Of a DNA stretch of 64,000 bases, positions 12,699-14,913 are shown piece after piece. The notes under the pieces were generated by a model that saw nothing but the letters and a program-made list of their open reading frames with translations, ran no database searches and was not told where the DNA came from. Position numbers and translations under genes: made by a program. How positions within the stretch are numbered: the stretch's first letter is position 1; each line of letters starts with the position of its first letter. The stretch lies in contig CAMWVA010000003.1 in assembly GCA_947177575.1 (NCBI GenBank), positions 1-64,000 of the forward strand, written 5' to 3'. Origin of the DNA: an uncultured Porphyromonadaceae bacterium. GTDB taxonomy: Bacteria > Bacteroidota > Bacteroidia > Bacteroidales > Muribaculaceae.

Positions 12699-14327
12699 CT
12701 AATCGTCATTATCTTTATCGTGATTTTTCATTCGCGAATGAGTCTTGGTCTGGTTACTGTTCAAGTCGCGTTCTTCTTTTAAATCGACTTCCTTCTGTTC
12801 TGCATCTATGACACGATACTGTAGATAGGCTAAAGATTCGTCAGCCACAATCTTGAAGTTACGCCCGTATCGGCGACGCCATGTACCGTAGAGTGAAAAG
12901 AGACCTTTCTTGATATAAGCCTCCACGTACGGATGTACATACATTACGAACTTCTTGATTTGAAGATGATTAACCAGATAATCAAGTTTCTCGTCGAGTT
13001 TATCGGTGAACAGTAGTGAAGGCTGGACTTCTCCTCGGCCGTAGCACGACGGACACGTCTCGGCTGTAGTTATATCAAGGGCCGGACGCACGCGCTGGCG
13101 TGTTATCTGCATCAGACCGAATTTGCTGAGGGGCAGAATGTTGTGACGGGCCCTGTCGTTAGCCATAACTTCGCGCATGTGATCGAAGAGTGTCTGACGG
13201 TGTTCCGGCTTAGCCATATCGATGAAGTCTATGACAATAATACCGCCCATATCGCGCAGACGTAACTGACGGGCTATCTCATCAGCGGCCTTCAGATTAA
13301 CATCAAGAGCATTCGACTCCTGGTCGGGACTTGCCTTTGAGCGATTGCCCGAATTGACATCAATGACATGCAGAGCCTCAGTATGCTCAATTATGATGTA
13401 GGCACCGCTCTTAAATGATACTGTCTTGCCGAAACTACTCTTTATCTGACGAGTGACGTTGAAATGATCGAAGATAGGAATCTCTTTGTTGTAGAGTTTT
13501 ACAATGTCCTTGGTCTCCGGTGCAATCAGGGTCACATAGTTCTGTATCTGGGTAAAGGTTTCGGGGTCATTAACCCATATACTCTCGAAGGTTGGGCTGA
13601 AAATATCACGTATCACGCTCACGGCACGCGAGTCTTCCTCATATATAAGAGCCGGCGGCTGACTACGCTGCATCTTACCTATCGCTTCCTCCCAGCTTTT
13701 GACAAGTGTACGCATCTCATGATTGAGCTCAGCTACACGCTTATTTTCTGCCGAAGTCCTTACTATGACTCCGAAGCCTTTGGGCTTTATACTACTGATA
13801 AGCTGGCGAAGACGGATTTTCTCTTCAGCTGATTTTATCTTCTGCGAAATCGAGATTTTGTCGCCGAAGGGTATCAGAACCATGAACCGTCCTGTAAACG
13901 ATAATTCGGTGGTAAGCCTTGGTCCTTTGGACGATATGGGCTCCTTAGCTATTTGCACCATGAGCTCCTGACCGGGCTGTAGAAGGTCCTGTATGGTTCC
14001 CGTTTTGGGTATATCGGGCAGTGTCTTGAACTTCGATATGTTAGGCAGACGCTTCTTATCCTCAAGAGCTTCCTTGACGAAAGCCTGATAGGTTGAAAAC
14101 TGAGCTCCCAGATCGAGATAATGAAGAAAAGCGTCTTTCTCATAGCCGACATCCACGAAGGCAGCATTCAGACCCGGCATTATCTTCTTGACCTTAGCCA
14201 GATAGAGATCGCCCACAGCGTATGCTATGTTGCGGCTTTCTTTCTGCAAAGACACAAGACGCGAGTCCTCAAGCAGCGCTATCGAGATGTCTTTCTGCTG
14301 TACATCGACTATCAGTTCGCTTTTCAT
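12699..14327 (-). CDS. rng: Ribonuclease E/G family protein (start chosen at MKSELIVDV)
   Basis: MKSELIVDVQQKDISIALLEDSRLVSL...KIMPGLNAAFVDVGYEKDAFLHY...GGIIVIDFIDM...CPSCYGRG. Confidence 0.93.
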   Translation of the reverse strand: MKSELIVDVQQKDISIALLEDSRLVSLQKESRNIAYAVGDLYLAKVKKIMPGLNAAFVDVGYEKDAFLHYLDLGAQFSTYQAFVKEALEDKKRLPNISKFKTLPDIPKTGTIQDLLQPGQELMVQIAKEPISSKGPRLTTELSFTGRFMVLIPFGDKISISQKIKSAEEKIRLRQLISSIKPKGFGVIVRTSAENKRVAELNHEMRTLVKSWEEAIGKMQRSQPPALIYEEDSRAVSVIRDIFSPTFESIWVNDPETFTQIQNYVTLIAPETKDIVKLYNKEIPIFDHFNVTRQIKSSFGKTVSFKSGAYIIIEHTEALHVIDVNSGNRSKASPDQESNALDVNLKAADEIARQLRLRDMGGIIVIDFIDMAKPEHRQTLFDHMREVMANDRARHNILPLSKFGLMQITRQRVRPALDITTAETCPSCYGRGEVQPSLLFTDKLDEKLDYLVNHLQIKKFVMYVHPYVEAYIKKGLFSLYGTWRRRYGRNFKIVADESLAYLQYRVIDAEQKEVDLKEERDLNSNQTKTHSRMKNHDKDNDD

Positions 14328-14342
14328 TGGTGTATTATGAAA

Positions 14343-14399
14343 AAAGAACAAACTGTGGCAGGTCGCGTTCTTAATACGCCACTCACCTGTTTGTTCTTT
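14343..14399 (-). promoter_or_regulatory. Structured 5' leader immediately upstream of rng
   Basis: AAAGAACAAAC (14343-14353)/GTTTGTTCTTT (14389-14399) outer stem plus GTGGC (14355-14359)/GCCAC (14378-14382) inner stem. Confidence 0.5.
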
Positions 14400-14454: not shown

Positions 14455-14544
14455 TTATTTCTTCTTATGACGGTTCTTTCTCAGTCTTTTCTTACGCTTG
14501 TGGGTAGCCATTTTATGGCCTTTTCTCTTTTTTCCGCTTGGCAT
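14455..14544 (-). CDS. 29-aa very basic protein, mS38/AURKAIP1-COX24-like (not in supplied ORF track)
   Basis: Reverse-complement reading gives MPSGKKRKGHKMATHKRKKRLRKNRHKKK-stop. Confidence 0.75.
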   Translation of the reverse strand: MPSGKKRKGHKMATHKRKKRLRKNRHKKK

Positions 14545-14640
14545 AGTTGTTGTGTTTTTTTATGTGTTGTTATCTTGATGCTTGTCGGACACAAATGATT
14601 TCAGCAATTTCGATGTCACGGTCTATACCGTGAAAACCAC

Positions 14641-14913
14641 TTATTTCACCTGGTCCAGAAATACTTTCGAGGGTTTAAATGCCGGTATCTTATGTTCCGG
14701 TATCTTGATAGTTGTGTTTTTGGAGATGTTACGAGCAGTTTTCTCTCTTCGTGTCTTCACGATAAAGCTACCGAAGCCACGAAGGTACACATTATGGCCG
14801 TTTCCCATAGAGTCCTTCACCACCTCCATAAACTTCTCTACCGTGGACAGCACGGCGGCTTTCTCAAGACCTGTGCTGCGTGAGATTTCGTTTACAATAT
14901 CAGCTTTTGTCAT
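14641..14913 (-). CDS. HU family DNA-binding protein
   Basis: MTKADIVNEISRSTGLEKAAVLSTVEKFMEVVKDSMGNGHNVYLRGFGSFIVKTRREKTARNISKNTTIKIPEHKIPAFKPSK. Confidence 0.96.
   Translation of the reverse strand: MTKADIVNEISRSTGLEKAAVLSTVEKFMEVVKDSMGNGHNVYLRGFGSFIVKTRREKTARNISKNTTIKIPEHKIPAFKPSKVFLDQVK

Follow-up and report, generated by a model that had tools for sequence, protein, structure and literature searches.

The window, the whole 64,000-nt stretch of DNA analysed here, carries on its minus strand a 29-codon open reading frame (ORF) that, judged by sequence comparison, almost certainly encodes bS22, a small basic protein of the 30S ribosomal subunit. The protein itself is already known, having been described as a small-subunit ribosomal protein and being present in solved ribosome structures. 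Translation of the minus strand from 14544 to 14455 gives MPSGKKRKGHKMATHKRKKRLRKNRHKKK and ends at a TAA stop codon. The annotation of the bS22 coding sequence (14455..14544, minus strand, 29 codons plus TAA) draws on this translation, on phmmer matches, on the pattern of codon variation and on distribution across the phylum. An earlier, sequence-only reading had placed a reverse-strand ORF of 29 codons at 14455–14544, and its coordinates and strand were exact. Its statement that more than half of the residues are lysine, arginine or histidine also held when these were counted (11 K, 5 R and 3 H, 19 of 29 residues; K plus R make up 16 of 29, or 55%).

The upstream neighbour encodes an HU-family DNA-binding protein (14641..14913, minus strand; Pfam PF00216, E = 2e-26) and the downstream neighbour, rng, an RNase G/E family ribonuclease (12699..14327, minus strand; TIGR00757, E = 5e-133), confirming the proposed placement of the ORF between HU and rng. 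The rng ORF was listed as 12699–14351, with its likely start at the ATG at 14327. Directly 5′ of the bS22 start lies an A-rich leader (14545..14568, minus strand), in which direct reading revealed no Shine–Dalgarno-like sequence. Leaders in Bacteroidota usually lack such a sequence, and the equivalent 24 nt in members of the same genus (congeners) are also A/T-rich.

Identity of the ORF product

A phmmer search of the PDB with the 29-residue peptide returned three end-to-end matches and no others: 9i5v_10, an AURKAIP1/COX24 domain-containing protein (26 of 29 residues identical, E = 1.4e-9), 7jil_5 (25 of 29, E = 5.1e-9) and 8fmw_V, the 30S ribosomal protein bS22 of Borrelia burgdorferi (20 of 28, E = 1.3e-5). 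The alignments covered residues 1 to 28 or 29 at 71–90% identity. One PDB sequence, u123360 (7jil_5 and four other entries), is named both 30S ribosomal protein S22 and 50S ribosomal protein L38. As bS22 and bL38 are distinct proteins in the Borrelia ribosome paper (PMC10618245), and given the match to 8fmw_V, we read this naming as bS22. The length of 29 residues and the charge of the window protein also fall within the published range of ∼28–33 residues, 55–65% of them positively charged (PMC10085706). Based on the PDB chain matches and the published descriptions of bS22, we therefore assigned the window protein to this family. In agreement with the earlier proposal of a ribosome-associated or rRNA-binding protein, the matched chains are bS22 chains of solved ribosomes and structural papers place bS22 in the small subunit.

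Among proteins of known structure, chain 5 of the Flavobacterium johnsoniae 70S ribosome (7jil) and chain 10 of 9i5v resemble the window protein from end to end and differ from it in length by at most one residue. Relative to these chains, the window protein carries G9 where they have R9, and it departs from them in a few further places (residues 3, 12 and 21–23); G9 is common to the whole genus and several related families. The Borrelia burgdorferi protein (8fmw chain V) has the same THKRKK core and NRHKK tail, but comes from another phylum, uses a GUG start and is unannotated in the Borrelia genome (PMC10618245), whereas other bS22 relatives are annotated in databases (e.g. 9i5v_10 and the Cutibacterium acnes protein, PMC10085706). 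The actinobacterial bS22 proteins of Mycobacterium smegmatis and C. acnes occupy the same 30S site (PMC10085706, PMC10618245), with the latter having 33 residues and 37% identity to F. johnsoniae bS22 (PMC10085706). Mitochondrial mS38 (AURKAIP1/COX24) and cytosolic eL41 occupy a site analogous to that of bS22, and mS38 is likewise a bent basic helix (PMC10618245), although longer than the window protein.

The likeness to mS38/AURKAIP1-COX24 suggested by the sequence-only reading was the right comparison according to database names and structural papers, but it was not recovered by the corresponding Pfam model. The proposed search with an AURKAIP1/COX24 profile was negative, as COX24_C (PF08213) matched neither the window protein at E ≤ 10 nor anything in the whole genome, and an NCBIfam search of the protein also gave no COX24_C-type match. 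These negative searches count for little beside the strong phmmer match. Of 14 control genomes, only 3 were matched by the COX24_C model, and these belong to other lineages. The link to mS38 therefore rests on published structures and not on the Pfam model.

Gene order and the hairpin upstream of rng

The association of bS22 with rng is strongly conserved. In 31 of 32 congeners rng lies directly 3′ of bS22, and in the remaining one the contig runs out 187 nt downstream. Elsewhere in the order, 22 of 23 members show the same arrangement. When loci were fetched with the window Rng protein from a separate genome collection, bS22 was directly 5′ of rng in 78 of 80; in the two exceptions, the upstream sequence is just 186 nt long in one contig, and a run of Ns covers the first codons in the other. 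The closest records by Rng similarity are metagenome assemblies labelled uncultured Porphyromonadaceae and Bacteroides sp. (98–99% identity), ahead of many that bear the label Muribaculaceae, so the window most probably derives from a Muribaculaceae-type member of Bacteroidales. Further afield in the phylum, rng was found within 1.5 kb downstream of bS22 at 10 of 19 loci, with no rng match in that interval at the remaining nine. In 25 of 32 congeners the HU gene was no more than 220 nt upstream of bS22, and it adjoins bS22 in all order-mates with enough sequence, while in more distant relatives it is mostly 600–1050 nt upstream. Thus, the HU–microORF–rng order that had been put forward for conservation stood firmly on the rng side, but on the HU side it is common and not universal. 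In the seven congeners without HU upstream (L005, L012, L019, L021, L026, L029 and L031), this space is taken up solely by genes of the YigZ/IMPACT-like and DJ-1/PfpI-like kinds, or by a gene for a HAD-type hydrolase. In three distant Bacteroidota loci that we read (L057, L061 and L068), an ORF encoding TPR-like repeats and a hydrophobic segment at the N terminus is situated between HU and bS22.

Between bS22 and rng we identified a terminator-like hairpin (14342..14399, minus strand), AAAGAACAAAC ... GUUUGUUCUUU followed by a U run, with a minimum free energy of −23.7 kcal/mol and a z-score of −4.9. A comparable stem and U run occurred in 54 of 63 bS22–rng gaps, compared with about 17 expected from shuffled sequence. 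This hairpin probably acts as a terminator and uncouples the expression of bS22, which is presumably produced at ribosomal levels, from that of rng; the bS22 mRNA would then normally end at the hairpin before rng. The same stem, roughly AAGAACAAAC ... GTTTGTTCTT, recurs in these gaps across species and families with differing loops (the window, L002, L003, L007, L008, L020, L025–L028, L030, L034, L043, L045 and L049), and it is more alike among species than an ordinary terminator requires. We regard it as improbable, though conceivable, that bS22, besides acting in the ribosome, is also linked to RNase G through this hairpin, e.g. if surplus free bS22 bound to it and changed the read-through into rng.

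The sequence-only reading had also drawn on proximity to an RNA-processing enzyme, and the position is indeed conserved, but it is not what shows the function. A basic peptide with no ribosomal role that acts with RNase G, for instance by chaperoning RNA or by autoregulating rng, would fit both the recurrent hairpin and the position of rng as the next gene downstream in most Bacteroidales and in many other Bacteroidota. However, this protein has been built into solved ribosome structures and the peptide is already a stoichiometric 30S component in relatives, while nearly half of the more distant loci retain bS22 without a nearby rng match. We therefore consider such a partner of RNase G very improbable and retain the assignment to bS22.

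Conservation and phylogenetic distribution

The 6 kb around bS22 are overlapped by 68 ORFs of at least 25 amino acids, so the presence of an ORF is by itself no evidence of a gene. We compared the coding sequence among 32 congeneric copies, in which 31 peptides are identical and the sole change is S3N. Despite this identity, nucleotide variation touches 24 of the 29 codons, and of the 25 variable sites 23 fall at third codon positions; for a random single change in this ORF, the expected synonymous fraction is about 18%. Mean pairwise identity among the congeners was 93% for the coding sequence versus 37% and 26% for the 60 nt on either side (ungapped comparison). Across the phylum, a match to the peptide was found in 196 of 198 sampled genomes (79–97% identity among the matches listed), and a second draw of phylum genomes gave bS22 in 57 of 60. 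Together, the identical peptides, third-position variation, unconserved flanks and phylum-wide matches indicate that the ORF encodes a protein and is under strong purifying selection, and that bS22 is near-universal in the Bacteroidota genomes sampled. Hence the absence of peptide conservation, which would have spoken against a gene, was not what we observed. That this is a non-functional chance K/R-rich ORF or leader peptide, as the abundance of short ORFs in the region and the low complexity of the sequence might suggest, is refuted by the PDB chain matches, protein conservation throughout the phylum and third-position drift, and is the least credible reading of all.

A few genomes gave no bS22 match. 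In one genus of the same phylum (g112), bS22 was undetected in three near-complete genomes (G207, G255 and G258), against its presence in 57 of the 60 genomes of that draw. The rng gene of this genus is divergent in G207 and G255 (40% identity), G207 has no bS22-like ORF upstream of rng, and a further query, built from the Borrelia sequence, matched weakly and in G255 alone (E = 0.9). This genus may represent a real, lineage-specific loss of bS22. Four congeners and one order-mate also had no match: for one of them (G003), the contig stops <100 nt short of the start of rng, and in the other four, which are incomplete drafts, rng was not found either. These five absences are therefore probably assembly gaps and not losses.

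We also looked for virus-encoded copies. A degenerate bS22 pattern gave three matches in 2.9 million viral contigs, all of which look like chance products of the degenerate code: in two (L157 and L159) the residues MSTHKSKK lie inside a phage gene array, and the third (L158) has no bS22-like ORF on its ORF listing. A tblastn search of bS22 against 50,697 phage records returned no match, a result weakened by the BLAST low-complexity filter.

Predicted role in the ribosome

bS22 has been described in Borrelia, F. johnsoniae and M. smegmatis, and is regarded as analogous to mS38 and eL41 (PMC10618245). In Borrelia it forms a bent helix in a 16S rRNA pocket of h2, h27, h44 and h45 and touches H68 of the 23S rRNA, and the F. 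johnsoniae protein lies in the same pocket (PMC10618245). C. acnes bS22, which carries the database name AURKAIP1/COX24 domain-containing protein, occupies the same site, where it touches 23S rRNA and thereby creates a new inter-subunit bridge (PMC10085706). By analogy with these relatives, the window protein would sit in the h2/h27/h44/h45 pocket and contact 23S rRNA at the subunit interface, with its lysine, arginine and histidine residues predicted to neutralise the rRNA backbone. These results do not describe a new kind of system, but they add phylum-wide distribution and synteny figures for bS22. They illustrate how small the ORF of a core ribosomal gene can be, and that genes of 29 codons are worth annotating.
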